Shown here piece by piece: positions 50,894-64,000 of a DNA stretch of 64,000 bases. Each line of letters starts with the position of its first letter. The stretch's first letter is position 1. The notes beneath the pieces were generated by a model. That model was not told the DNA's origin and made no database searches. It saw nothing but the letters and a program-made list of their open reading frames with translations. The position numbers were made by a program, and so were the translations under genes. Source of the DNA: Haloprofundus salinisoli (GTDB taxonomy: Archaea; Halobacteriota; Halobacteria; Halobacteriales; Haloferacaceae). The stretch lies in the NCBI RefSeq assembly GCF_020097815.1, contig NZ_CP083663.1, forward strand, positions 496,001 to 560,000. The letters are read 5' to 3'.

Positions 50894-51295
50894 ATGTCAC
50901 AGAAACAGAACACTTCCGACACGGGGCAGAGTGACTCGACGCGTCGAACCGTCCTCAAAGCCAGCGCGCTCTCAGCGGGCGGACTCGCGCTGGGACTCGG
51001 GGGGACGAACACCGCCGCCGCCCAGCAGGGCGGCGGTCAGCAACAGCAGTACGACGCGCGGATGTTCGTCCAGGACTACCGCCCGGGGGCGCGGCTACAG
51101 ATCGTCTCCAATCCGATCAACTACACCCCGCAGAATCTCGGGTTCACTCCCTTCAACGACTACAACACCCGGATAGGGATGTACCGGAATACGAACGAGC
51201 GTGTGCTCGTCTTCACGCCGCAGAACGCGCAGATTCAGTCGGGGCAGAGCTTCACGCTCCAGCCGGACTTTTCGCTCTTTCAGGACAACGACTAG
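50894..51295 (+). CDS. Tat-secreted small protein with interrupted Gly-rich tail
   Basis: A 133-residue protein from ATG 50894. Tat signal STRRTVLKASALSAGGLALG is followed by AQQGGGQQQQY. The mature domain (DARMFVQDYRPGARLQIV, YNTRIGMYRNTNERVLVFTPQNAQIQSGQSFTLQPDFSLF) is beta-rich and stops at TAG 51293-51295. The same frame continues for 25 codons (GVISVTLASTGGGGQGGN and more Gly/Ser) to TAA 51371-51373, looking like the natural final strand plus Gly-rich tail. The stop thus removes probable native sequence. It shares the Tat plus Gln-run plus Gly-tail plan with the gene at 43868. Confidence 0.75.
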   Translation: MSQKQNTSDTGQSDSTRRTVLKASALSAGGLALGLGGTNTAAAQQGGGQQQQYDARMFVQDYRPGARLQIVSNPINYTPQNLGFTPFNDYNTRIGMYRNTNERVLVFTPQNAQIQSGQSFTLQPDFSLFQDND

Positions 51296-51452
51296 GGTGT
51301 GATCTCGGTTACGCTCGCTTCGACCGGCGGTGGCGGTCAGGGCGGTAATCAAAGCGGAGGCGGCGGCAGCTAAGATAACAGCGTAACGCAGGAATCGGAG
51401 AACCCTGCGTCAACCACCGTCGAAGAATCGAGTTCTTTCTCGGACGTGCCGT

Positions 51453-51570
51453 GTAGTCCCGGCGGATTCGACCCGCGGTCGCTCACTCCGTTCGCTCTCT
51501 GCTTCGAATCCGCGTAGTCACTATCACTGCTCGCTGACGCTCCCAGAAAGTAGTCCCGGGCGGATTCTGC
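51453..51570. other. Candidate integration site (attL-like repeats) next to integrase
   Basis: Two near-identical direct repeats lie just before the recombinase gene: gtagtcccggcggattc at 51453-51469 and gtagtcccgggcggattc at 51550-51567 (one extra g). A third partial copy in inverted form, gaatccgcgtagtc, is at 51506-51519. DNA composition changes at this point, from core-like GC-rich to accessory. The first repeat's reverse complement looks like a tRNA T-arm/acceptor end, but no complete tRNA could be built. This fits an attachment site; a matching copy should exist at the far end of the element outside the window. Confidence 0.4.
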
Positions 51571-51612
51571 TCGTAAAGGTAATAATCCTCTTCTGAGAAC
51601 AACTGAGCAATC

Positions 51613-53117
51613 GTGCCGAACCTCAACGATCTCAACAATGATAAAAGTAGGTTAGAAAGCCGCATCGAAGACCTACAAGAGCTCCCCCGAGAGGACCGGC
51701 AGCTCTTGCAGTACTGGCTAACGAACTTTCGCGACTCGAACGCCGACTCAACCACACTCGGCCATCTCGGGCACTTACTCACCCTCCAAGAAGAGCTCGA
51801 AGTACCACTCTCAGAAGCAACAAAGTTCGACTGGACCGACGCCGTCTCCACTCTCGCCAACGACCGCAACTGGACGAACGGCACAAAGCGGAACTACCAA
51901 AAATCAATCCGATCGTTTCTCGACGAAGTTGAGGAGGATGTAGCGGCGAACAAAGATGAGATCTCGCTAGCGAAGGACGACTCAGGGGGTAAGATCGACG
52001 AAGACGACATCCTCAGCCCGAAGAAGTCCGTATCCTGATTGACGAAGCCAGCAACCGCCTCAGGGATCAATCCATGTTTGCTGTCCTAATCGATTTAGGT
52101 CTCCGAATCGCTGCTCTGTGTTCTCTCAGGGTCAAGGACTTCGAATTCGAGGATGGCGCGAGCGTTGGGGAAATCACATTGAACGACGAAGCCCTCGGTC
52201 AGAAAGGAAGCGGTGGTCGTACACATGTCGCGACCATCAGCAGTGGGTACATCCGATCGTATCTCCGATCGGAGCATCCACGCCCAGAGGAGCCTGAGGC
52301 TCCCCTTTTTCACAAAATCGGGAGACACTATCGAGAAGATGACCCGAGCGACGACGGGTCCATCAGCCCCGCAGCGTTTCGCCGACGGATGCGTCGGTTA
52401 GCGACAAATACCGACATCGATTTTGAGAAACTGCATCCGCACAACATGAAACACTCAGCAGTAACAATCTGGGCACTTCGCGGGATGTCCGACCGGGAAA
52501 TCGAGTATCGAGCGGGTTGGGCACGCGAGTCTGGGCAGCTCAAACGCTATGAGCACCTTACCGGGGACAATGTCAACAGTCAAATCATCGACACGCTCGG
52601 TATTGAACATGAAAACGACGACGCCCGTACTGTCGCACCAATCAAATCTTGTCCAAACTGTAACGTCTCGATTGATTCGAGTATGCGATTCTGTCCGCAG
52701 TGTGGTCAAAAAATCGACTTGGAGATGCGCCCAGAATGGTTCGTGCAGTATATTGAGGAGTACGGGGAGGACGATGACCTCGCCACGACTCTGCTCAACA
52801 GTCCGTCCCAGATTGTTTCAACGCCCGAAGATCTGCCTGAGTCACATCGAAGCCGTCACCAGGATAAAATCGAACAAGTTGTGGGGTACTCGCTATTCGG
52901 ATCGGCGAGTCCAACCGACACCGACACCGCACCTCTGACCCTCCCATACGCTGACAACGAGACTGAAGAAACGACGGTTTGGGTTCCATTCGGTGTCCTC
53001 GAAGAACACGGTGACTCCCTACGCGTAAAACGCACCAGCGACGGATTACTCTCGCTGCTCGATAACGATGACAATGTTGTCGAGACAGTCGATCCGCTTG
53101 GGATTGATGACACGTAA
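51613..53117 (+). pseudogene. Tyrosine recombinase (integrase), frameshifted
   Basis: From GTG 51613 an N-terminal SAM-like DNA-binding domain (141 codons) runs into a premature TGA at 52036-52038. A neighbouring frame, opening about 52018, continues with EEVRILIDEASNRLRDQS and the catalytic domain: first Arg in IDLGLRIAALCSLRV, box II HPHNMKHSAVTIWALRG and the C-terminal Tyr in LKRYEHLT. A zinc ribbon follows (CPNCNVS, RFCPQCGQK) and an acidic tail. Total length is 1505 bp, one base short of 502 codons, so one base was lost at AGCCCGAAG near 52017-52021. In box II the usual second Arg of HxxR is Lys (HNMK). Confidence 0.85.
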
Positions 53118-53300
53118 CCTCGAAAGCAGGCTCTCACAACTCTAAAACAGGGGTATTTGCGTTCGTGAGTCTATCTCTACACCCCATGTGAGACTGGACG
53201 GAGAAGTCTATTCTGAATTCAACATAATTTGAACAACCATATTTTGGAAAAGCCACTCTCGATGTCCGAAATTAGGGTATACACGTCTCGTACCCCCAAT

Positions 53301-53537
53301 TCACCAGCTAGTAGCGGCGAGTATTTCCGTTACTTCTTCGAAGACACGGTACTGGTAGATGTTCGAAGTCAATCGAACAGACATGCTCGCAGACCACTGG
53401 TACTCTGAACTCAGTATGCACTGTGTATGCAGCACGCGCGGCCCAAACTGCTCAACTTCCGTCAGGATCAGCGTGACCGACTTAGAGGTTATATTCCGCA
53501 CTGTATTATCCAATTCATCACCTGCTGAAAAACTCAT
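53301..53537 (-). CDS. Small hypothetical protein after the winged-helix gene
   Basis: A 78-residue frame from ATG 53537 (MSFSAGDELDNTVRNITSKSVTLILTEVEQFGPRVLHTQCIL) ending EVTEILAATSW. It begins 22 bp after the stop of the winged-helix gene on the same strand, giving an operon-like pair. The sequence looks structured (beta/alpha alternation) but matches no family I recognise. An opposite-strand frame covers the same region and is considered the shadow. Confidence 0.38.
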   Translation of the reverse strand: MSFSAGDELDNTVRNITSKSVTLILTEVEQFGPRVLHTQCILSSEYQWSASMSVRLTSNIYQYRVFEEVTEILAATSW

Positions 53538-53558
53538 CTCCGATATCAAGGTTATATC

Positions 53559-53930
53559 TCACGGGGATTTTCCGAGCTGAGAGACGACAAAATCGTTGGT
53601 CTGGGAGGGTTGTTCAAGAGCCTCGCTAACAGAGAGGATCACGTCAGCCTCTGCTGACAGTCCCGAGATACGGACTTGCTCATTGGTGCGGTCGTATTCG
53701 ACGTGTGTAGCATCCTCAAGTTTCGGAAGGTGAGAGTGTTCTAGCGAGAGAATTACCTTTTGTAGCTCATCGTCGGGGATAGTGTCACACGACCCGTTCT
53801 CTTCCCACTCATAGATTTTCTCTGCGAGTTCGTCGATTGATACCGGGCTTTCCGCGCCCTTCAGGTAGTACAATGCAAACCGTCGTCGTTCCGTGCTGAA
53901 TAGCGAAAAGACCTCGTCTAGTAATTCCAT
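53559..53930 (-). CDS. Winged-helix (DUF7344-like) regulator of the accessory region
   Basis: A 123-residue protein. EVFSLFSTERRRFALYYLKGAESPVSIDELAEKIYEWE opens the DUF7344-type winged helix, and VILSLEHSHLPKLEDATHVEYDRTNEQVRISGLS is its recognition helix and wing. It is related in layout to the core-genome protein at 14648-14998. It probably regulates genes of the integrated region, including its own operon. Confidence 0.85.
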   Translation of the reverse strand: MELLDEVFSLFSTERRRFALYYLKGAESPVSIDELAEKIYEWEENGSCDTIPDDELQKVILSLEHSHLPKLEDATHVEYDRTNEQVRISGLSAEADVILSVSEALEQPSQTNDFVVSQLGKSP

Positions 53931-54100
53931 ACCACCCCCAAGTCAGTACCTGGAATATGAATTGCTCTCACTCAATTCATTAATCGTAGCGCGTGTAGAC
54001 TCACTCGCTACGGCGAGTATCTGTGCCGTATATCCATCTTCCCGAGGTCGAGCAATCGTGGCAACTCAGGGTATGTGTGTTTCCTACCCTTGACTATGCG

Positions 54101-54185
54101 AGATTCGCGCCTTCTATTCAGCACAGCCGCTGAAACCTTCCCAATCTATGTCAAATGTTGTATGCTGAATAGAGAGGGTATATTT
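54101..54185 (+). repeat. Palindromic dispersed repeat, copy 1
   Basis: Left arm 54101-54123 (with cttctattcagca), centre 54124-54162 (39 nt, includes atgtca), right arm 54163-54185 (tgctgaatagagaggg). Here the arms are a perfect 11-12 bp inverted repeat, tctattcagca/tgctgaataga. The end of the right arm contains gggtatattt, a TATA-like box 29-36 nt before ATG 54213. Confidence 0.8.
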
Positions 54186-54212
54186 CTCTTGTACTATACT
54201 ATTATAGGTACT

Positions 54213-54476
54213 ATGGACGACGACCAGCCAGAGGATCAGTCTCAAAAGTCACAACAGAGTTTACGAGTGGAGACAATGACGACTCAGTTCAATCCATCTC
54301 TCCGATTCGATAGCCAACTCTTGGGGCTAATTATTGCATTGGTTTTGATATTTCTGGCCGTATCGACGCATACGTGGGGTGACTACAGTATCATTATAAC
54401 GGGTAGTATTCTCGCCCTTGCCCTACTCGTCGTATTTATTTCGTTTCCGTACAGGATATTCCGAGAAGAGCGCTAA
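54213..54476 (+). CDS. Two-helix membrane protein (87 aa)
   Basis: An 87-residue protein from ATG 54213: a hydrophilic Gln/Ser-rich N-terminus (about 33 residues) and two membrane helices (LLGLIIALVLIFLAVST and YSIIITGSILALALLVVFISF) with a basic tail. It lies between repeat copies 1 and 2 as the sole gene of that unit. Function unknown. Confidence 0.6.
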   Translation: MDDDQPEDQSQKSQQSLRVETMTTQFNPSLRFDSQLLGLIIALVLIFLAVSTHTWGDYSIIITGSILALALLVVFISFPYRIFREER

Positions 54477-54518
54477 GCGACCGTTTTACACTGAGTGTCG
54501 AGACAAACGTAACGATGT

Positions 54519-54610
54519 GACCGATACGCGCGCTGTATTCAGCAGGCGGTGAGCGAACACCTCAATTGCTGTCAGTAACGGAGTGCGAGATACAGAGGTT
54601 CTATTCGGCA
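54519..54610 (+). repeat. Palindromic dispersed repeat, copy 2
   Basis: Left arm 54519-54544 (gaccgatacgcg then cgctgtattcagca), centre 54545-54583 (39 nt, with ctgtcagtaac), right arm 54584-54610 (tgcgagatacagagg then ttctattcggca). It starts 42 bp after the stop of the preceding plus-strand gene. Confidence 0.85.
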
Positions 54611-54662
54611 ACTCGGCGAAGAACATACATATGATTATATTTTATTGCTGAGGAGAGTAGGT

Positions 54663-55100
54663 GTGCAACACCTTCGACCCTCTCGGCGAAACGTGGCGAT
54701 TGGGGGCGTAACTGGGGTCGCTCACTTGTTGCTAATCACTATAGTGTGGCTCTGGTTTGCGTCTCGTGAGCCGTATCCAACGATGTATGAGGAGCCGGTG
54801 GCAGTGCTTTCCTATTCGTATCCGATGAACGTCTGGTTTATCGGTACCGTCGTAGGGCTTGTACTTCTCGGGCTGGTTCCGACTGTCCTGTTCCTCGAAC
54901 AGCAACTGGTCGTCCCCTCACTCAGCGTCGCCGTGTGGTTCGTGATTCACTTCGATAGTCACTGGCAAACGATTCATGAGCCATGGCGGGTGATGGGGAT
55001 TCCTCCGCTGGATTTCTACATTTTTGGCGGCGTCTACACGCTCACGACTGCCGTTCTTGGAGGAGTCGTCGAATACGCTGTCCGCCGATATCTAGCCTGA
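54663..55100 (+). CDS. Four-helix membrane protein (about 145 aa)
   Basis: A hydrophobic protein with helices around NVAIGGVTGVAHLLLITIVW, NVWFIGTVVGLVLLGLVPTV, LVVPSLSVAVWFVIHF and FYIFGGVYTLTTAVLGGVV. There is no ATG; GTG 54663 is chosen, but TTG 54645 is in frame. It is the only gene between repeat copies 2 and 3. It resembles other small accessory haloarchaeal membrane proteins without known function. Confidence 0.6.
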   Translation: MQHLRPSRRNVAIGGVTGVAHLLLITIVWLWFASREPYPTMYEEPVAVLSYSYPMNVWFIGTVVGLVLLGLVPTVLFLEQQLVVPSLSVAVWFVIHFDSHWQTIHEPWRVMGIPPLDFYIFGGVYTLTTAVLGGVVEYAVRRYLA

Positions 55101-55182
55101 ACAATCCGCTCAGACACTGGACAGTAATTGCGTGTTCTGAATCTCTGACTCTGTCCCTCTGTCAAGGAGACGATCGATAGGT

Positions 55183-55260
55183 GACCGATAAGCGCTCTCT
55201 ATTCAGCATAGCCACGATAAACACTCAATCCGGCGTCAGAACCGTGTGCTGAGACTCTTC
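55183..55260 (+). repeat. Palindromic dispersed repeat, copy 3 (right arm divergent)
   Basis: Left arm 55183-55208 (gaccgataagcg then ctctctattcagca), centre 55209-55246 (38 nt, with gcgtcagaac), right arm reduced to tgctgagactcttc (55247-55260). It ends at the stop of the minus-strand lipoprotein gene. Confidence 0.7.
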
Positions 55261-56128
55261 ACAAATCGTCTGTGGTTTCTGTCGATGTGCTGGTGGTAAT
55301 CGTGGTTTCTGTTGAACGCCGTCCACCACTCGATTGCATATTGAACTTCATGTTCGCATCACCGGTAGGCGAACTGATGTAGGGTGTACGTGAATACGTC
55401 CACGTTGCCGACTCACCCGCTTCGACTTCAAGCGCAATAGCCTCGACGGGTATGTAAGCAATTTCAGGACCAATACGGTTGAGCGCCCCGATGAAGGTCC
55501 CAGCTACCTCTCCAACATTCTCAACGACGAGCGTGAGAGTAACCGTGTCTCCATTCGCAACCGACGCAGGTGTGGAAAACTCACTTACCTCGAACTCGGT
55601 AGGCGGTCGCGCCAATTTTCTCACCATGTCCTCACTCAACTCATAGTTTCCAGTCGTCCCCTGAATCGCGATTTCGGTTGCCTCGAGAGGTTTAGGAACA
55701 GAGAACCAGACCGTGTCTGTCGGGTCAACCGTGTAGGTATCACCATTAACCCACGGAGAATCACTCCACGTAATTTCCTCGAGATTTTGAGGTGAGTAAA
55801 TCGTTCCGTCAGCTGTGAAAGTGATTGAATCTGTGGGAGAAATCGCGGAGATGTCTCTTGCAACTTTGGCGAAAACGAACTGCTCGCTTTCTCTTCCGTA
55901 CGTTCCGATCGAGTCTGGAGAATTTGGGATGACCAATGTTGGCGTGGTAACCACACTTTCGACGGACAACTCCGCTGTGCCCGTTGGGAGTGGTGTCTGG
56001 GTTTGTCTCGAAGGACTCTTTGTGTCGGTACCCGATTGGTTCGTTGAGTTACTGAGACACCCTGTGAGTGAGCTGAGGGCTGCTCCAGTGAGGCAAAGGG
56101 CATTGCGTCGGGACCAGAGGGAAGGCAT
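55259..56128 (-). CDS. Lipoprotein with Tat-like signal (289 aa)
   Basis: A 289-residue protein from ATG 56128. The signal WSRRNALCLTGAALSSLTGC combines a twin-arginine start with a lipobox LTGC, so it is likely exported by Tat and lipid-anchored. A Ser/Thr linker (about 25-50) leads to beta-rich segments (ISAISPTDSITFTADGTIY; FSTPASVANGDTVTLTLVVENVGEVAGTF; ESATWTYSRTPYI), the last resembling CARDB-type beta-sandwich domains that assist adhesion. It ends in a Thr/Ser tail. It is the single gene between repeats 3 and 4, and transcribed against the repeat direction. Confidence 0.78.
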   Translation of the reverse strand: MPSLWSRRNALCLTGAALSSLTGCLSNSTNQSGTDTKSPSRQTQTPLPTGTAELSVESVVTTPTLVIPNSPDSIGTYGRESEQFVFAKVARDISAISPTDSITFTADGTIYSPQNLEEITWSDSPWVNGDTYTVDPTDTVWFSVPKPLEATEIAIQGTTGNYELSEDMVRKLARPPTEFEVSEFSTPASVANGDTVTLTLVVENVGEVAGTFIGALNRIGPEIAYIPVEAIALEVEAGESATWTYSRTPYISSPTGDANMKFNMQSSGGRRSTETTITTSTSTETTDDL

Positions 56129-56582
56129 CGATTGAAGACAGTGTTCTGTGACGACGAATAAGCTTTCTGTGAAGTGTGTCGGCTGAAACGATGGAGGAAG
56201 TCAAAACGAGTGAAGTCTTCGCACAGTTGGTTGGGAGTCAGTGACCGAGACGCGCTCTGTATTCAACACGGCGTCAACAAAACTATTAGAAACTGAGGGC
56301 CTCAACAGAGCCGCGCCGTTCCCACGTGAGGGAACAGTCGGTGCTTGTGCTGACCGCGAGGTTGGGGAGGGCTGAGGCGGGTAGTTGCTGTGCGCTCGGC
56401 AGTCGTCTTCGTTACCTCAAGAACGCATCCGATAGCTGAATCACGAAAAGTCCGCTCCGGTACATCGACCACCACCTAACGCGGGGTATCTGCCGATTAA
56501 CTATATTTTGTTAAATTGACTTTATAGACAACAGCAATGTCAGGACCAGAACGTGTAAATAGAACCCACAGTGGTGTAACAG
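56129..56582. other. Gene-free spacer carrying repeat copy 4
   Basis: No ORF with coding character. It holds a degenerate repeat at 56243-56312, a GC-rich block (about 56313-56480) of different composition that may be relic DNA, and an AT-rich end with possible TATA boxes ctatatttt (about 56502) and ctttatag (about 56520) ahead of the gene starting at 56583. Confidence 0.45.
56243..56312 (+). repeat. Palindromic dispersed repeat, copy 4 (degenerate)
   Basis: The left arm 56243-56268 is well kept (gaccgagacgcg then ctctgtattcaaca). The centre is shortened and the right arm survives only as a short acagag segment around 56305-56310. Orientation matches all other copies. Confidence 0.65.
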
Positions 56583-57071
56583 ATGACTAATTCACTCGAC
56601 AGAAAGGCACAAACCGTTATTCGAATTGTCGGAGTTCTCTTTGCAATCGCTTCGGCAATTGCGCTCGTTGTCTCCTCGTATCCATTCACGCTCACTCTCG
56701 CTCTGATTCTTCTCCTTCTGCTATCCGTGTTTGCCGCCTTCAGACCAGGTGATGGCAAATCTGCCGGGAAGTACTTCGCTCCGATTATTTTCGTTTGTGT
56801 TCTCGTAATTAGCGTACTCACATTTTCGAGCTTCGACGTGGTCTATACTCTTCTCATGCTCACGTTTGCCGGACTCGCACTCTCACTGTTTCTTTTCGGA
56901 CTGGAATACGGCGTGGAAACCTTCCTCGTATCCGGTCTCGTCTGTCTCGCCTCTGCGTTCTACTTCTATCCGGCGAGGATCCTTGCAGCACTGATTGGTA
57001 TCACTACGGCCCTCATTCTCTTCTTCTACGCAGCAGTCACTAAGCGGAAACAAAAACACCAACTGGCGTAG
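56583..57071 (+). CDS. Polytopic membrane protein (162 aa)
   Basis: A 162-residue protein with about six membrane helices from residue 12 on (VGVLFAIASAIALVVS, FTLTLALILLLLLSVFAAF, YFAPIIFVCVLVISVLTF, LLMLTFAGLALSLFLFG, TFLVSGLVCLASAFYF, ILAALIGITTALILFF) and a basic end KRKQKHQLA. There is no recognised family. It is the main gene between repeats 4 and 5. Confidence 0.7.
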   Translation: MTNSLDRKAQTVIRIVGVLFAIASAIALVVSSYPFTLTLALILLLLLSVFAAFRPGDGKSAGKYFAPIIFVCVLVISVLTFSSFDVVYTLLMLTFAGLALSLFLFGLEYGVETFLVSGLVCLASAFYFYPARILAALIGITTALILFFYAAVTKRKQKHQLA

Positions 57072-57186
57072 AACTCGTCTTCTTCGATTATACTCCGGAT
57101 GGTACCTCTCCAGCATGTTCTCGACGTACTTCACCACCACGTCGATTTCAACGTGAACCGAGTCACAATCGGATTTTTCTGAGAGC

Positions 57187-57372
57187 GTGGTCGCAGGATA
57201 CTTTCCGCTCTTTCTCGTCGGAGCGTTCGTCTTCACCGTCACCTCCCCCGTCGGGCTTCCGTCGGTGTTTTTCGATATCGCGTATCCGCTCGTGTTCGGG
57301 GCCGTAGGAGGGTTGTTGGCGGACAAACGCGGCAGCGCATCAACGCCGACCGGAGAAGTCGCTGACGCATAA
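57187..57372 (+). CDS. Short two-helix membrane ORF, possibly a fragment
   Basis: A 61-residue frame from GTG 57187 (VVAGYFPLFLVGAFVFTVTS, FFDIAYPLVFGAVGGLLADKR). Two helices are visible and the tail is polar. The region between 57072 and 57187 has no matching frame. It may be a small gene, or the C-terminal relic of a larger membrane protein. It ends 62 bp before repeat 5. Confidence 0.4.
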   Translation: MVAGYFPLFLVGAFVFTVTSPVGLPSVFFDIAYPLVFGAVGGLLADKRGSASTPTGEVADA

Positions 57373-57433
57373 CGAGACTCAAGGTAACTTTTCGGAAAAG
57401 GTGAAACCCCTCTCAGATTCACTAGAGGGACAT

Positions 57434-57526
57434 TCTGCATTTGCGCCCTCTATTCAGCAGTCGGTGAGCGAACTCCTCAACGGCTGTCAGTAACGGAATG
57501 CGAGATACAGAGGGATGTATTCAGCA
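57434..57526 (+). repeat. Palindromic dispersed repeat, copy 5
   Basis: The left arm ends ccctctattcagca (57446-57459; the outer part is diverged), the centre is 57460-57498 (39 nt, ctgtcagtaac), and the right arm is 57499-57526 (tgcgagatacagag then ggatgtattcagca). Similarity to copy 6 continues for roughly another 60 nt after the right arm. Confidence 0.85.
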
Positions 57527-57610
57527 ATCGGGTATCGTTCTTTTCAAGTCCTCGGTGATGAAGCAGCCGTTAGGACGGTGAGCGTATTGATCGCTCGTCA
57601 TATATCTGAG

Positions 57611-58096
57611 TCAGAGAATTTCCACTCCGATATGATTAAGGACATACAGATGCAGTAAAAAACCACCCATAATTGTGGTCAGCATGAAAATCCTCGCTTC
57701 CTGTAAAAACACAACCGCCCACCACCCCCAGAGAAACATTGACGCACCGAAAAGCAACCCACTAATCGCAATTGCTACCGCGCCAACCCAGATCCACCGC
57801 CGCGTCTCCTTCCAGTCTTGGTATTCTGGTGGGTCATCCCGAGAGTACCGACGTCCCCTGCTGTAAAAGACGGCACCTCGAAGGAGAAAAAAGAGGACGA
57901 TGAGGAGGGTGAATGCGCCAAAGGCCGAAAGAGTAGGATTGAACGAACCAGTCTTAACATCTATGAAAAACGCCCCGAGGGTGCTGAGCAGAAGGACAGT
58001 AATGCCTGGCCCAATTATCATTCCTTCTGCAAGATAGAGGAGTGTTCGCACACGTTGAGACTGACTCGGAAGCGGCCAGTCAGAGTCATCTGTCAT
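57611..58096 (-). CDS. Four-helix membrane protein (161 aa)
   Basis: A 161-residue protein from ATG 58096 with helices around YLAEGMIIGPGITVLLLSTLGAFF, AFGAFTLLIVLFFLLRGAVFY, WIWVGAVAIAISGLLFGASM and IFMLTTIMGGFLLHLYVL. A polar loop (RGRRYSRDDPPEYQDWKETRR) lies in the middle. It is the sole gene between repeats 5 and 6, transcribed against the repeat direction. Function unknown. Confidence 0.68.
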   Translation of the reverse strand: MTDDSDWPLPSQSQRVRTLLYLAEGMIIGPGITVLLLSTLGAFFIDVKTGSFNPTLSAFGAFTLLIVLFFLLRGAVFYSRGRRYSRDDPPEYQDWKETRRWIWVGAVAIAISGLLFGASMFLWGWWAVVFLQEARIFMLTTIMGGFLLHLYVLNHIGVEIL

Positions 58097-58180
58097 CGCA
58101 ATAGAGACAATGCAATCCCCTGATAGATAGTTTCTCTGTATCTAATACTCGGTACGACCACCAATGGCGACTGACCGATA

Positions 58181-58271
58181 GCCGATACGCGCTCTGTATT
58201 CAGCACGGTTACGACGAACTACCCATTCCCTGTCAGAAGGCGCGTGCGAGATGCAGAGGGTGTATTCAACA
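58181..58271 (+). repeat. Palindromic dispersed repeat, copy 6
   Basis: Left arm 58181-58205 (gccgatacgcg then ctctgtattcagca), centre 58206-58244 (39 nt, ctgtcagaag), right arm 58245-58271 (tgcgagatgcagag then ggtgtattcaaca). It lies 85 bp upstream of the start of the minus-strand membrane protein. Confidence 0.85.
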
Positions 58272-58491
58272 ATCGAGCATCATTCGTTTCACGCCCTTAG
58301 TGGCGAAACAACCGGTAGGTGGGTGTGCGTACTTCCCAAACTCAGTTGTAATACTGGACTCTCATCTTGTTGACCACCTTTATCGCTATCGACCTCGGCG
58401 AGAGTTCCTCGGCGGTATTCTTCCGCTGGGGGATTTCGAAGTGACTATATCCGACGGTGAGAGTGACACCGAGAGTAGAGCCAAGGAAATA

Positions 58492-58752
58492 ATGTCCACA
58501 AAGAGAATGAGCCAGATGGACGTATTCTTCCGAATGGCCCGTGAGTTCCCCGTCCGCACCGGGATCTTCACGTTTGGCCTTCCGTTGTTTGCGCTTCTCC
58601 AGTTGATCAACGGCATCGTATACGACGGTTTGCTCCCCCTGATCGGTCTCTTTGCGGCGCTGACGGCTGCGTATTCGGTACAAGTCACTACCTATCACGT
58701 CGCAGCGTATCGGCGTGAAACGCTCTCACAACAGTGGATTGAAAATAAATAG
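58492..58752 (+). CDS. Two-helix membrane protein (86 aa)
   Basis: From ATG 58492 an 86-residue protein: MSTKRMSQMDVFFRMAREF, then helices FTFGLPLFALLQLINGIVY and LLPLIGLFAALTAAYSVQVT. The frame is open back to about 58300, but that upstream part is shared with repeat-flanking sequence and looks non-coding, so ATG 58492 is favoured. It shares a unit with the SPW-repeat gene. Confidence 0.55.
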   Translation: MSTKRMSQMDVFFRMAREFPVRTGIFTFGLPLFALLQLINGIVYDGLLPLIGLFAALTAAYSVQVTTYHVAAYRRETLSQQWIENK

Positions 58753-58786
58753 CGTGGCGTCCGAAGATGCCCTTTAGGTAACCTTC

Positions 58787-59233
58787 TCAGGTTGCAGTTC
58801 TTCGGTTTTCCGCTTCCTTGCGCTCCTCACGTGCCTCATAGGCGCTGTAGGCACCGAGGGCGAACGCGAGGAGGCCGACTATGACGTCGTTCCAGAACGC
58901 CAAGTCGTTGGTAGCTTCTGTGAACCCCGCGTCAGCGCCGAACATGAACGGCGCTGCGATGAGCCACAGGCCCAACAACGCAGCGACTGAAGCGGCAGCG
59001 ATGCTTCCAACTCTTTCGTTCGATCGACGGGAGTAGTTGTACGCGCCGACGGCAAACAGGAGGCCGCCAATGATGACATCGTTCCCGAACTGCGTGGCGG
59101 TGATGTCGAACATGATGGCTTGAATTATCATCCACAGCCCAAGCAGCGCGATGACGGCCGATAATCCCTTGCCGCTCTCGTCCGGGTTCGCGCTCTGACT
59201 GCGCGACCGCTCGTCCGTAGTATTGGTACTCAT
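58787..59233 (-). CDS. SPW-repeat membrane protein
   Basis: A 148-residue protein with a polar Ser-rich N-terminus and four helices forming two similar halves: ALLGLWMIIQAIMFD with NDVIIGGLLFAVGAYNY, and ALLGLWLIAAPFMFG with WNDVIVGLLAFALGAYSAYE. This doubled GLW...ND-I-GLL pattern is the SPW repeat, common in bacterial and haloarchaeal membrane proteins of unknown function. It converges with the preceding small gene. Confidence 0.85.
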   Translation of the reverse strand: MSTNTTDERSRSQSANPDESGKGLSAVIALLGLWMIIQAIMFDITATQFGNDVIIGGLLFAVGAYNYSRRSNERVGSIAAASVAALLGLWLIAAPFMFGADAGFTEATNDLAFWNDVIVGLLAFALGAYSAYEAREERKEAENRRTAT

Positions 59234-59412
59234 ATCAGTTTCCTCTCTTGTTAAGAGGCTGTCAATGGATGTAAGCGCGCTACTTGTAATTCCCAGTAGA
59301 AAAGAAGCAGAACTTCCTCTTCGCTAAGTTGTGTAATAAACGATGTCTGCGCTGATCAATAGCGTCTCTGTAGTGATCGATTCAGTTCGCTCACATTCGA
59401 ATGCCGATCAGA

Positions 59413-59504
59413 GACCGATACGCGCCCTCTATTCAGCATACCCACAGAAATCTGCTCAGTCCCTGTCAGAAACATCGTGCGGGATACAGAGGGTGTATTC
59501 AGCA
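59413..59504 (+). repeat. Palindromic dispersed repeat, copy 7
   Basis: Left arm 59413-59438 (gaccgatacgcg then ccctctattcagca), centre 59439-59477 (39 nt, ctgtcagaaac), right arm 59478-59504 (tgcgggatacagag then ggtgtattcagca). This is one of the best-preserved copies. Confidence 0.88.
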
Positions 59505-59566
59505 GCCTGTCGTTCGTTTCTCTGCTACTCAGGTTAGTGAACAGGCTACGATGAATAGGGTTGAGC

Positions 59567-60751
59567 TTACGGTAGCGCCGTCTGAAGATCCTCGCAGAGG
59601 TCATCGGCGTCTTCGAGGCCAACGGAAATTCGGACCAGCGTCTCGGGAATCTCCGCTGAATCGCCACTACGACTGAACTCGTCGGGGATCATTAGTGACG
59701 GCACCTCAACAAGGCTCTCAACCCCACCGAGACTTGCTCCCGGCGTGAATACTTCAAGTCCCTCGATGAACGCCTCAAGTTCGATGAGTGTACCATCGAA
59801 TTCGAAGGACAGCATCCCGCTGTACCCTGACATCTGCTCACTCGCAAGGTCGTGTTGCGGGTGGCTCTCAAGACCCGGATAGTGGACACGAACGACTCGA
59901 TCGTGGTTTTCGAGGAACCGGGCAACTGCCATCGCGTTCTTCTCGTGATGTTCCATCCGCGCGGGCAGCGTCTTGATGCCTCGCGCAACGAGGTAGCAGT
60001 CGAACGGCGAAAGCATATTCCCAAGTCCAACCCGCTGCGCGAACGCTAATTGCTCGAAAACCTCCTTGTCGTCGGTGATAACGGCACCGCCGATCGAGTC
60101 GGAGTGCCCGTTGAGATACTTGGTGGTGCTGTGAACGACGACGTCGGCACCCCGTTCGAGTGGGGCTTGGTAGTACGGACTCGCAAAGGTACTGTCCACG
60201 CCGAACAGGGCATCGTGGTCATCGGCGATGTCGGCTATCGTTTGGATATCGCACAACCTAATCAAGGGGTTCGACGGTGTTTCTGCCCAGATCAAGTCAG
60301 TGTCCGCGTTGACTGCATCGGCGACGTTGTCGGCGTCACGGGCGTCAACAAAGTCGATGTCAACGCCGAGATGTCCGGCCATGTGTTCCGTGAGCAGTTT
60401 TTCGGTTCCGCTATAGATGGAGTCCGAGGAGACGACGTGGCCTCCCGGGGGGACCAGCGACAGCATCGTCGTCGATGTGGCGGCCATTCCGGAAGCGAAC
60501 ACCAACCCATGCTCGCCGCCTTCGAGGCGGGCTAACTGCTCTTCGAGGGCTGCCCGAGTCGGATTGCTCTCGCGTGAATAGTCGTGTTCATTGGCGTCCT
60601 CCCCGCTGACCCACTCGAACGTAGTTGAGAGGTGGATCGGTGGGACGACGTCATTCGTTCCCTCCCTGTGAGGATGCGTCTCGGTTTTAGCTGCGCCGAC
60701 TGCGATGGTTGCGAATCGATTTCTGTCGGGCTGGTTATTGTGTCGTGTCAT
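59567..60751 (-). CDS. Trans-sulfuration PLP enzyme (cystathionine gamma-synthase/lyase type)
   Basis: A 394-residue PLP enzyme of the Cys/Met metabolism family. Substrate-phosphate motif DYSRESNPTRAALEEQLARLEGG, GLVFASGMAATSTTML, VDSTFASPYYQAPLERGADVVVHS and the PLP-binding Lys211 in HSTTKYLNGHSD are all present; the C-terminal SLGGVESLVEVPSLM fits. It catalyses gamma-replacement or elimination on homoserine or cysteine derivatives; the exact reaction is not readable. ATG 60751 is chosen because the long upstream open frame is non-coding. It is a metabolic gene inside the accessory region. Confidence 0.93.
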   Translation of the reverse strand: MTRHNNQPDRNRFATIAVGAAKTETHPHREGTNDVVPPIHLSTTFEWVSGEDANEHDYSRESNPTRAALEEQLARLEGGEHGLVFASGMAATSTTMLSLVPPGGHVVSSDSIYSGTEKLLTEHMAGHLGVDIDFVDARDADNVADAVNADTDLIWAETPSNPLIRLCDIQTIADIADDHDALFGVDSTFASPYYQAPLERGADVVVHSTTKYLNGHSDSIGGAVITDDKEVFEQLAFAQRVGLGNMLSPFDCYLVARGIKTLPARMEHHEKNAMAVARFLENHDRVVRVHYPGLESHPQHDLASEQMSGYSGMLSFEFDGTLIELEAFIEGLEVFTPGASLGGVESLVEVPSLMIPDEFSRSGDSAEIPETLVRISVGLEDADDLCEDLQTALP

Positions 60752-60897
60752 CGGATACTCACCACGGGACCCACTCGGACCCGATTTAGAGGGGTATTCA
60801 TAGTGATGTTCTCTGTTGTGAAGGATAGGCGTGAAGTTCCCGGCGAGGGTGGCCAGAAACCCAACCCCGACTTGCGTGTGGGTCAGCGAGTCGTTGG

Positions 60898-60920
60898 TTG
60901 CTAAATGTTGTATGCTTTGA
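60898..60920 (+). repeat. Possible remnant of a dispersed-repeat right arm
   Basis: The stretch aaatgttgtatgct, followed by ttgaggg, matches the end of the centre and start of the right arm of copy 1 (aaatgttgtatgct, then gaatagagaggg). No left arm is present. It lies in the spacer between the PLP enzyme and ABM genes, where an array copy would be expected from the spacing of the others. Confidence 0.4.
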
Positions 60921-60960
60921 GGGGAAGCGTCTTGTTCGCGTGGACGGGTGAATAGTCCAG

Positions 60961-61281
60961 ATGTATTTGGTAACGTTCCGCCTCGCTCCCGGTGAGTACG
61001 ATGCGGAGTTTCATGAGCTGAATGACGCGATACAAGCGGCTGCCGAGGACACGGAGGGATATCGGGGCAAGCAGACGTGGCATGCACCAGATAGTGAGGA
61101 GATTCTTGTCGTCTACTACTGGGAGTCGTTGGACGCAATCGAGTCGTTTGGAGTGGATACGGACCACAAACGTGCGAAACAGCGGTGGACGGAGTGGTAC
61201 GATGCGTATGAGGTCACCGTTACAGAAGTCGTTGAGAGATATGGAAGTGGGTTCGGTGACGATGCGAGCCCACTCGGGTAG
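60961..61281 (+). CDS. ABM (antibiotic-biosynthesis-monooxygenase) fold protein
   Basis: A 106-residue protein with the dimeric alpha/beta-barrel pattern of ABM domains: MYLVTFRLAPGEYDAEFHELNDAIQAAAEDTEGYRGKQTWHA, then ILVVYYWESLDAIESFGVDTDHKRAKQRWTEWYDAYEVTVTEVV. Members are small monooxygenases or degradases; no substrate can be assigned. It is divergent from the PLP-enzyme gene. Confidence 0.78.
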   Translation: MYLVTFRLAPGEYDAEFHELNDAIQAAAEDTEGYRGKQTWHAPDSEEILVVYYWESLDAIESFGVDTDHKRAKQRWTEWYDAYEVTVTEVVERYGSGFGDDASPLG

Positions 61282-61332
61282 GGGTTCGCCATGTTGGTTC
61301 AGGTGAAACTATATTTTAATAGTAATACATAT

Positions 61333-62217
61333 TCATTGGAGTTTCCCATCTAAGACCGGAATCACGCGCCCTCCGACTTCGACAATAATACCATCTGGCA
61401 TTTTCGCTGCTCGAAGTTGGAGGTGTGAGGGGCGATCCATCTCGTAGCCCTGTTCAACGGTGACCTCAATCTCGTCCGTGTCACAGTAGTCGTGCTCGAC
61501 GAGATAGGCGGCGAGGCAACCGTTTGAGGAGCCTGTAGCGGGGTCTTCTGGGACGCCAGCGCAGTCAGCGAATACACGGACATGCAGGTCGTTGTCCTCA
61601 GCCGTCTCAGAAGAGAACACGAGCACGTTCAAGTTGCCGTAGGAATCGATGAGCCGATTATAGTACGGTTCCAGTTGCGTCTCGGCTCGTTGGACGGCGC
61701 TGAGGGAGGTCAAGGGGACAACGACGGTGGGAAGACCCGTCGAGACAAGCCTGATTGGGTGGGAGTCATCGATATCCGCCGTGTTGAGACCGAGAATATC
61801 TGCGAACAGTTCCGATGAGAACTCGTCCTCGAAGGTCGGCTGAATTTGCCGCATCCAGTAGGTCTCGTAGCCGTCGTGGTTTTCGACCCAAACCGGAATC
61901 TGGCCGACGCCGAGATTAAGCACAACTTCCTCCGGGAGATCGTCTCGGAGGTGTTCACGAATTACGAATGCTGTTCCGAGTGTTGGGTGGCCGGCAAAGG
62001 GGATCTCCTCAGCGGGGTCAAAGATTCGGACATCGTATCCGGCCTCTGTCGTGTCAGGCGATTCGATGAACGTCGCTTCGGAGAAGTTTGTCTCACGGGT
62101 GAAAGCGAGCATCTCATCAGTAGACAAGTTCGATGCGTCACGGACGACTGCCAGTTGGTTTCCTGTGTACTTCCCTTGAGCGAATACATCGACGAAATGA
62201 ACTCGGTTAGTCGACAT
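61333..62217 (-). CDS. PhzF family isomerase/epimerase
   Basis: A 294-residue protein of the PhzF (diaminopimelate-epimerase-fold) family. The catalytic Glu47 lies in TNFSEATFIESP; IPFAGHPTLGTA and DPATGSSNGCLAAYLVEH are the conserved glycine-rich active-site loops. PhzF isomerises a phenazine precursor in Pseudomonas, but most homologues act in other, mostly unknown, pathways. No phenazine genes are nearby. It starts 73 bp from repeat copy 8. Confidence 0.92.
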   Translation of the reverse strand: MSTNRVHFVDVFAQGKYTGNQLAVVRDASNLSTDEMLAFTRETNFSEATFIESPDTTEAGYDVRIFDPAEEIPFAGHPTLGTAFVIREHLRDDLPEEVVLNLGVGQIPVWVENHDGYETYWMRQIQPTFEDEFSSELFADILGLNTADIDDSHPIRLVSTGLPTVVVPLTSLSAVQRAETQLEPYYNRLIDSYGNLNVLVFSSETAEDNDLHVRVFADCAGVPEDPATGSSNGCLAAYLVEHDYCDTDEIEVTVEQGYEMDRPSHLQLRAAKMPDGIIVEVGGRVIPVLDGKLQ

Positions 62218-62289
62218 TTGCGTCTATCGGTGTACGGTACATGAATATTTGTAGCGATTCTGACGAGGTTAAATCGTGGCGGTCTCTGT

Positions 62290-62381
62290 GAACGATATGC
62301 GCCCTGTATTCAGCACGCTTGCTGAAACCTACCCAATCCTTGTCAGAAACAGTATGCGAGATACAGAGAATGCATCTCTCA
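62290..62381 (+). repeat. Palindromic dispersed repeat, copy 8
   Basis: Left arm 62290-62315 (gaacgatatgcg then ccctgtattcagca), centre 62316-62354 (39 nt, ttgtcagaaac), right arm 62355-62381 (tgcgagatacagag then aatgcatctctca). Confidence 0.85.
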
Positions 62382-62457
62382 CGGAGACCTCGTTTATTCC
62401 GTCTCATCGGGGCTGAACTAACTGCGAGTAGAGCGTGCGCACCGAGTGATTTGGCAT

Positions 62458-62805
62458 TTAGTGCACTTCGGCTTGCTTCCTGCTCTGGAATCTGCTCCTT
62501 GCGAAATATAGACCCATGAGTACGACTCCGATTACGAGCCCCGCCATGAGATTGACCAAAAGCCACTCACGAGGATGAACCGCGATTGGTCGGGGTTTCA
62601 GTACCTGAAAGTACAGGTATCGTAGTTCCTGCGAAAACACGTATGGGACGAGGAAACTACCGAAACTGCCCCCACCACAAACGAGTGCCCGTACGAAGCG
62701 ACTGGTTGATGAGACTCCCCGTCTCACACAGGCGAGATACACGAGAACAGCTACAGCTACCCCGACAACAAGTCCGGTTCCGAACAGAATTTCGAGGAGA
62801 GTCAT
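62458..62805 (-). CDS. Three-helix membrane protein (115 aa)
   Basis: A 115-residue protein from ATG 62805: helices LLEILFGTGLVVGVAVAVLVYLAC, FVRALVCGGGSFGSFLVPYVF and WLLVNLMAGLVIGVVLMGLYF, then a basic end RSRFQSRKQAEVH. No family is recognised. It is the only gene between repeat copies 8 and 9. Confidence 0.62.
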   Translation of the reverse strand: MTLLEILFGTGLVVGVAVAVLVYLACVRRGVSSTSRFVRALVCGGGSFGSFLVPYVFSQELRYLYFQVLKPRPIAVHPREWLLVNLMAGLVIGVVLMGLYFARSRFQSRKQAEVH

Positions 62806-62917
62806 AGCGTCGGCGTACACGACAGACTATCTCGATTCGTATAAGATGTTTCGTCTGAGTGACCAGTGCAATATCTATACGGAGCAGTTCGACTCCCCAC
62901 ATCCAGATCGAACTTAT

Positions 62918-63009
62918 AACCGATACGCGCTCTGTATTCAGCAGCACCTCTGCGAACTACCAAGGTTCAGCCAGAAACACCGTGCGAGATACAGAAGCTC
63001 GATTCAGTA
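62918..63009 (+). repeat. Palindromic dispersed repeat, copy 9
   Basis: Left arm 62918-62943 (taccgatacgcg-like then ctctgtattcagca), centre 62944-62982 (39 nt, cagccagaaac), right arm 62983-63009 (tgcgagatacagaag then ctcgattcagta). It is the last copy seen before the remnants at the right end. Confidence 0.85.
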
Positions 63010-63073
63010 CGACCAAAACCGTGGACTCACACGGTTACAGCTCTGGGTCAGGTTTTGTGCTTTACACCGAGTC

Positions 63074-63233
63074 TCAATAGAAGCCGGGTTTCCAATCCTT
63101 CACCAGCTCAATCTCAGCCAAGTACAGAGACGGCAATTCCGTCTCATCATCTACCATCTGATACTGCGGCCACCACATATCCCTGTTAAAGTTCAGCGAG
63201 CGTCTCCAATTCATCAGGCGTGAGTGCGTCCAT
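63074..63233 (-). pseudogene. Fragments of a small gene in two frames
   Basis: From ATG 63233 a frame reads MDALTPDELETLAEL and stops at 63186-63188. A neighbouring frame continues with NRDMWWPQYQMVDDETELPSLYLAEIELVKDWKPGFY and ends at 63074. Together they look like one short protein split by an indel. The family is unknown and the call is weak. Confidence 0.3.
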
Positions 63234-63281
63234 AGCGATCTCGGAGAATACGAGTCTAGAGCCTCACCAGACTCAACTGAT

Positions 63282-63600
63282 GTGAAAATAAGCACGCAAC
63301 AGGACCTAAACTCCGAACTGTGGGGGCTCCTCGGTATCGCGTGGTTCGCGTTCGTCCTCGGGTTCGCACACGAGGAGAAGTTCGAGATCATCGCGCTCTG
63401 TACCGGGTCGAACTACTGCCTCGAACTCATGAGTGCGTGGTCTCACGGTCATCGTGGGTATCGTCGGACTGACGATGCTGTTGATTGCAGGCTACCACCA
63501 CTCCGAAAAACTGGTCGTGCGGTACACGCCGTATCTCCCCGCGTTCTCCGCTGCCGTTCTCACCATTATGGGCGTTGGTTTCATCGCAGGGGTCTTCTGA
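63282..63600 (+). pseudogene. Truncated, frameshifted nickel/cobalt-type transporter remnant
   Basis: The frame from 63282 contains LWGLLGIAWFAFVLGFAHEE followed by KFEIIALCTGSNYC, reminiscent of the C-terminal part of NicO/UreH-type metal transporters, which keep a conserved HEE motif. At about 63440 the sense moves to another frame, continuing LTVIVGIVGLTMLLIAGYHH to GVGFIAGVF and TGA 63598-63600. The N-terminal half of such a protein is missing. It is therefore a decayed fragment; the family assignment is tentative. Confidence 0.55.
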
Positions 63601-63703
63601 GGAGGATTGAACAAGGTGGAGCAAAGGAGCCAAAGATAATCGAAAACGCCATTCTACGTGCCGTCGGTAGAAAGTTACGCGAGAGTTCTTATCCTATCAA
63701 ATA

Positions 63704-64000
63704 TCACCTACCGAACCTAAAGTTCCAAAGATGTCGCAATTGACCTCGAAGACTAGCTGAGACAGCTCCATTGAGATACTGACGTCCGAGCGCCGTTATC
63801 CGGTATTTCCCCCGGTCGACTTTAGTCACGAACCCACGCTTTTCCAACTCAATGAGTCTGCGGTTCACCTCGTCACGGCTGTAATCGATGTTATGAGCAA
63901 TGATCGACGGGGTCAAGACGAGATCCGCTGAGTCGAACAGATTCAGAACTGTATCGTCAATCGGCAACATCCAGTCGGCGGGCTCGCGAACTTGGCTTGG
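63704..64000 (-). CDS. Winged-helix regulator (PhiH1-repressor-like), partial
   Basis: The frame runs from 63704 to the window edge; the last residues at the edge read PSQVREPADWMLPIDD, and proteins of this type normally have a few residues before the ADWM segment, so the start is probably outside. LTPSIIAHNIDYSRDEVNRRLIELEKRGFVTKVDRGKYRITALGRQYL is a clear winged helix related to haloarchaeal PhiH1-repressor-like proteins. It probably regulates mobile or accessory genes. Confidence 0.82.
   Translation of the reverse strand, partial: PSQVREPADWMLPIDDTVLNLFDSADLVLTPSIIAHNIDYSRDEVNRRLIELEKRGFVTKVDRGKYRITALGRQYLNGAVSASLRGQLRHLWNFRFGR

Follow-up and report, generated by a model that had tools for sequence, protein, structure and literature searches.

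The repeat array and its gene units

The window, the whole stretch of DNA that was analysed (64,000 nucleotides, C1:496001-560000 of the 3.42 Mb genome of Haloprofundus salinisoli, G000), contains at 54-63 kb a series of repeats of ~90 nt, named LR, which separate small gene units. We consider it likely that this series is a haloarchaeal cassette array, now decayed, and that it has two layers, carriage by a transposon of the IS5 family of insertion sequences (IS) and exchange of units by a recombinase at two sites, a and b, within the repeat. Five genomes of the genus Haloprofundus were compared, G000 and G001-G004.

The LR search model was built from sequence alone, from seven repeat copies. 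On the plus strand of the window it detected seven strong copies (70-84 bits) at 54097..54185 (70 bits), 54518..54606 (82 bits), 57436..57522 (75 bits), 58179..58267 (81 bits), 59413..59500 (84 bits), 62289..62376 (81 bits), and 62917..63005 (75 bits). Besides these, the same strand showed a degenerate remnant at 53415..53496 (34.5 bits), a truncated copy with a damaged right half at 55182..55250 (33.7 bits, model positions 2-71), and a half copy at 56242-56281. The half copy is part of a transposon left end (L-END, 56242..56312, plus strand, 58 bits with the L-END profile) composed of site a, the middle box, and an inverted tip CCTCAACAGAGCC at 56300-56312. The nine copies and one remnant counted by an earlier note on this DNA thus became seven strong copies, one truncated copy, and one remnant, and its copy at 56.24 kb is the transposon end.

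Shuffled sequence (213 kb) gave no LR-model match of 10 bits or more. G000 contains 58 copies of ≥25 bits, which are clustered: 47 neighbour pairs lie <6 kb apart, where random placement predicts ~11, and 46 of these 47 are co-oriented. Another count of orientation gave 166 same against 10 opposite. Copies were present in 31 of the 40 relatives searched and in 112 of the 148 genomes of the family. The series is therefore confirmed as real, far above chance, and co-oriented; the earlier note had claimed one orientation in the window and had proposed a search for clustered, co-oriented copies in other genomes, and both were found.

Each LR has the order site a, middle box (GAACTCCYCA-N5-TGTCAG), site b. 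Site a reads TGACCGATAC-GCGCYCT-GTATTCAGCA and site b GTGCGAGATAC-AGAGGNT-GTATTCAGCA, so that each 7-bp centre is flanked by dyad arms; in the copy at 54097 they appear as GATTC-GCGC..-TATTCAGC and GAATAGAGAGGGT.., respectively. The conserved blocks are GCGC..GTATTCAGCA and GATACAGAGG, which are not the R and L boxes of attC. Because sites a and b are mutually inverted, LR is an imperfect palindrome, as had been noticed before. The pairing of this palindrome showed no more covariation than shuffles, one pair was mispaired in 38 of 109 copies, and the predicted folding was poor in most copies; a folded hairpin is therefore unsupported as a conserved feature and was rejected. A known structured RNA was also rejected, as Rfam gave no match within 51000-64000. 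The layout supports the view that the repeats carry putative sites of the tyrosine-recombinase type.

The units between the repeats of the window are mostly single genes. At 53497..54096 lies a DUF7344 gene (53559-53930, minus; Pfam), with a 94% identical unit between other repeats in G002. It is followed by a small membrane protein at 54186..54517 (54216-54476, plus), known from its open reading frame (ORF) and a weak Pfam match only, and by a membrane protein at 54607..55181 (54645-55100, plus; ORF), for which G004 has 80% similar DNA. The unit 55251..56241 has a gene for a CARDB-like protein of 289 aa that is probably a lipoprotein (55259-56128, minus; ORF, Pfam), and 57523..58178 one for a membrane protein (57611-58096, minus; ORF, Pfam). 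A small protein (58300-58752, plus) and an SPW-repeat protein (58787-59233, minus) share 58268..59412, and this unit has a 90% identical counterpart in G002 directly behind a transposon right end (R-END). The last unit, 62377..62916, holds a membrane protein (62458-62820, minus).

The largest unit, 59501..62288, is a fused cassette with a pyridoxal-phosphate (PLP) Cys/Met enzyme (59567-60751, minus), an ABM/DUF4188-type monooxygenase (60961-61281, plus), and PhzF (61333-62217, minus). The pair of PLP enzyme and monooxygenase was found on many plasmids at 78-93% identity. On C2 of the same genome a repeat stands between this pair and PhzF; from the window copy that repeat was apparently lost through an imprecise deletion of ~200 bp.

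The 134 cassettes collected had a median length of 660 bp, and the longest ORF was a single-member cluster in 97 of 130. Cassette genes pointed forward in 65 cases and in reverse in 65, so the idea that repeat orientation follows gene direction was rejected; the independence of the two, already claimed for the window, holds.

Transposon ends and the recombinase module

Complete arrays follow the order R-END - (unit - LR)n - unit - L-END. R-END, at the array start, is a right half repeat with an outer box GGCTCTGTTGAAAYCCTCA, and L-END, at the array finish, is a left half repeat with the same box inverted; the internal copies are without it, and one-unit elements without any internal LR are also present. 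The tips are GGCTCTGTTGAAAYCC. Target-site duplications (TSDs) of 8 bp flank the elements L155 (GTTATCAG), L157 (AAAAATCT), and L158 (GTAGATTT), and L151 shows TTAATAAAT, with 9 bp shared. Scanning Halobacteria for the tips gave many further elements with 8-bp TSDs. These boundaries, and the origin of LR described below, were missing from the earlier note.

The transposase was found through elements with the same tips. It is a DDE_Tnp_1 protein (PF01609) and scored 216 bits with the NCBIfam IS5 model NF033579 (cut-off 140). In autonomous copies the gene for the DDE transposase stands 5′, followed by site b, the cargo units, and site a, and complete ones hold the transposase with 1-5 cargo units. 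L366 of Halorussus halophilus (3325 bp) has two units and one LR, in the order transposase, b, TrkA_C, LR, formate/nitrite transporter, L-END, and a perfect TSD ATTTTTAG. L360 of Halomicrobium urmianum (6752 bp, perfect TSD AGCCGTTT) has four LR, and L359 of Natrinema sp. DC36 (3152 bp, perfect TSD AATCGTTC) carries a multicopper oxidase. L336, another complete autonomous copy, has the TSD CCTAGCCC.

Two other origins of the ends were rejected. IS6 has similar-looking tips, but its transposase is absent from G000, G001, G002, and G004, with a remnant only in G003, and the tips of haloarchaeal IS6 differ. IS1595 is absent from the genus and has tips CGCTCTT... A transposon copy in G003 has a cargo that reads by eye as cytochrome P450; no TSD was found for this copy. 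The exact 20-bp tip box also occurs beyond Halobacteria, on a contig of a Methanoregula metagenome-assembled genome (MAG; L220), where contamination is possible.

Inside some repeats a recombinase gene was observed. At C1:1480.9k of G000 lies a 234-aa tyrosine recombinase with the R-K-HxxR-W-Y set complete as read by eye. Small PhiCh1-Int1-like genes of this kind (int, ~234 aa), with site a on one side and site b on the other, were found at seven loci, in G000, G004, Halorubrum ezzemoulense, Salinirubellus salinus, Natrinema salinisoli, Natrinema sp. DC36, and Haloarcula marina. The enzyme is 42-49% identical to phage Int1 and its relatives (42-44% to Int1 of PhiCh1/ChaoS9), and the central recombinase of these phages inverts tail-fibre genes (PMC6471424). 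No homologue was confirmed on viral contigs. LR aligns to both edges of the a-int-b module, and the motif GANACTCCYCAA occurs at both int edges and once in LR. Because of these two matches, LR is most simply read as an a-int-b module after deletion of int between the short direct repeats GANACTCCYCAA. In G000 (L062, C1:1480-1485k) and G004 (L076, C2:80-85k) the module is accompanied by a gene for an 804-aa PAS histidine kinase and by a relative.

Exchange of units and competing explanations

Fourteen pairs of units were 83-97% identical across different arrays or genomes, and in most of them the identity reached both edges. It begins just past GATACAGAGG and ends at CGCGC, that is, within both 7-bp centres (for these breakpoints the sites are given as b, GCTGAATAC-AGAGGNT-GTATTCAGC, and a, GACCGATAC-GCGCYCT-GTATTCAGC). 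The repeats flanking shared units had similarities mostly of 0.60-0.72, with a few of 0.76-0.86; random repeat pairs gave 0.63 ± 0.08 upstream and 0.65 ± 0.08 downstream, so the flanking repeats are generally as dissimilar as random pairs. The strongest case is the comparison of the L336 and L366 backbones, which come from different organisms. Their left 939 bp are 99.8% identical and their right 60 bp 100% identical, while the TSDs differ and the cargo between b and a is wholly different. One chromosomal site showed four units in G001, one in G004, and none in G000 and G002. The empty sites of array C, which were recognised by eye through the flanking frame as the spacer before grpE, varied too much to yield a TSD. 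The comparisons support the view that single gene units move from one array to another and that the breakpoints fall at the repeat, which the earlier note had proposed to look for, and here the pairs indicate it across species.

In the mechanism that we favour, cassette arrays are cargo of an IS5-family transposon, as the complete copies elsewhere show, and the cargo units would be swapped at the core-like sites b and a, where the breakpoints lie. We infer that the enzyme is the Int1-like recombinase. Supplied in trans by intact modules, for instance the one at C1:1480.9k, it would swap cassettes at a and b in the way that an integron integrase uses attI and attC; the units may move as circles. 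LR itself would arise from the a-int-b module through loss of int between the GANACTCCYCAA repeats.

Several observations weigh against this mechanism. The window array has one L-END (56242-56312), and neither an R-END nor a TSD was found for it; no intact int was seen near it. Among the five genus genomes, intact Int1-like frames occur only in G000 and G004, and most arrays would therefore need the enzyme in trans or be inactive. In G001-G003 a recombinase frame of such a length was not seen, which would make their arrays orphans. In the G000 module, the upstream site a scored just 8 bits. L371, a 75%-identical homologue, is without a and b, and on plasmids of Natrinema caseinilyticum (L372) and Natronococcus AD-5 (L375) an inverted site a stands downstream of the Int1-like gene, which is perhaps an invertible version. 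The exchange is seen as sequence footprints, between species rather than strains. Finally, a and b may be boxes to which the transposase binds.

This last point leads to the alternative that survives best, although we regard it as unlikely: plain IS5-family transposons with passenger genes, in which a and b serve as inner boxes for transposase binding, and the transposase or abortive gap repair, with no site-specific recombinase, replaces the cargo. Terminal inverted repeats, TSDs, and a transposase are all present on complete copies. A sister IS clade has other cargo-side boxes and its cargo turns over as well, so the boxes may co-evolve with the transposase. In that clade, ISHla2-like (L228, L231, L207, L266, L325, and others), the inner boxes are of the GTTAGATATAG / CTAACTAACGGC type, and 0.3-1 kb of cargo is fully replaced behind a nearly identical transposase. 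Such binding boxes fit poorly with a site b behind the transposase gene, >900 bp from the tip in autonomous copies, with sharp breakpoints within 7-bp-centred dyads, and with a tyrosine recombinase gene between a and b.

It is improbable that LR copies are miniature inverted-repeat transposable elements (MITEs), that is, non-autonomous a-int-b copies that inserted at dyad targets in contiguous genes and built the arrays by repeated insertion at a fixed target, without movement of cassettes. LR does match both a-int-b edges, and near-identical repeats have different neighbours. Repeated insertion does not account for one transposon backbone in which the cargo held by the same two sites is entirely different, or for 83-97% identical cassettes with unrelated neighbours on both sides. 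No flanking duplication was seen at the repeat edges and no precise empty repeat site was found, in line with the earlier note, which held random MITE insertions to be unlikely; the sole presence/absence case is the imprecise deletion before PhzF.

A true haloarchaeal integron run by the zinc-ribbon recombinase at 51.6-53.1 kb is hardly credible: this gene stands just ahead of the array in the direction in which the array runs, and ~180 bp separate another recombinase from an R-END at C1:377.6k, but the zinc-ribbon gene is frameshifted, of another family than the repeat-borne enzyme, and not consistently beside arrays, and the system shows no IntI signature, no attC boxes, and no covariation.

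Relation to known systems and the adjacent recombinase

As in integrons, small and varied gene units lie between recombination sites of one orientation and are exchanged whole at these sites; every repeat has two simple sites that form an inverted pair, a tyrosine recombinase goes with the sites, and there are orphan arrays that lack the enzyme. Unlike integrons, the haloarchaeal recombinase is PhiCh1-Int1-like and consists of the catalytic domain only; its gene lies within a repeat and not beside attI, and the 5′ gene of complete arrays is an IS5 transposase. The core sites lack GTTRRRY/RYYYAAC boxes and a conserved hairpin, cassette genes are balanced in orientation, and the arrays are transposon cargo. 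With the IntI model TIGR02249 the repeat-borne recombinase scored 20 bits against a cut-off of 265, and the window recombinase gave no match. Archaeal integrons have been reported from MAGs of nine phyla, and the text of that survey does not mention Halobacteria or haloarchaea (PMC9668308). Our literature search found no paper on such haloarchaeal arrays.

The DDE_Tnp_1 transposase, inverted tips, 8-bp target duplications, and non-autonomous derivatives are those of the IS5 family (ISHla2-like, the name given by the annotation pipeline PGAP to a homologue ~70% identical to the L161 transposase; the literature search found no paper on ISHla2). The haloarchaeal arrays differ in holding several cargo units separated by remnants of a recombinase module, and in precise replacement of cargo between the fixed sites b and a. 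The Int1 module of PhiCh1, PhiH1, and ChaoS9 has a homologous small tyrosine recombinase, whose gene likewise lies within a segment bounded by its sites; the phage enzyme switches two tail-fibre genes (PMC6471424), whereas the haloarchaeal module parts unrelated genes in arrays and has mostly shrunk to its sites. Arrays of IS26 translocatable units consist of tandem gene units with co-oriented copies of one mobile sequence between them. That plan resembles the present one, except that the haloarchaeal separators are ~90-bp sites without transposase or tips.

The system was not classed as an integron because IntI, the attC boxes and structure, and the int position are not those of integrons, while the IS5-family features (DDE transposase, inverted tips, perfect 8-bp TSDs) are present on complete copies elsewhere. 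It looks like an integron-like cassette system, separately built and borne by IS5 transposons, which functions like an integron but is not one. The earlier idea of a haloarchaeal cassette system therefore keeps its co-oriented arrays, unit exchange, and repeat-linked recombinase, and loses its membership of the integron family. We lean, by a little, towards a capture of cassettes that arose apart from integrons, with a PhiCh1-Int1-type recombinase, double dyad sites, repeated int deletion leaving the spacers, and IS5-mediated spread among chromosomes, plasmids, and genera.

If this holds, arrays of gene cassettes have at least two separate origins and use different enzymes; haloarchaea, whose gene exchange is known to be extensive, would have a concrete mechanism for it; and many orphan genes would be explained as mobile cassettes of a genus-spanning pool. 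With the LR profile, cassettes can be listed throughout Halobacteria, and complete copies bounded by TSDs offer ready test objects for a system of transposase and recombinase.

Ahead of the window array lies the tyrosine recombinase that the earlier note took for its enzyme (51613..53117, plus strand), with a C-terminal zinc ribbon and a reading frame split by a frameshift near 52018. The attachment-site-like repeat described with it is also present: GTAGTCCCGG(G)CGGATTC forms a direct repeat of 17-18 bp at 51453 and 51550, 97 bp apart and just upstream of the gene. No tRNA was found in the window, and a tRNA attachment site was rejected; the direct repeat is possibly the remnant of another integrated element. 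The recombinase was set aside because it is frameshifted and unrelated to the repeat-borne Int1-like enzyme beyond the catalytic fold, and it is probably not part of the cassette system. The window contains no transposase gene. Each of the five genus genomes also has one conserved tyrosine recombinase of 350-354 aa (in G000 at C1:2808940), which is probably a core gene.

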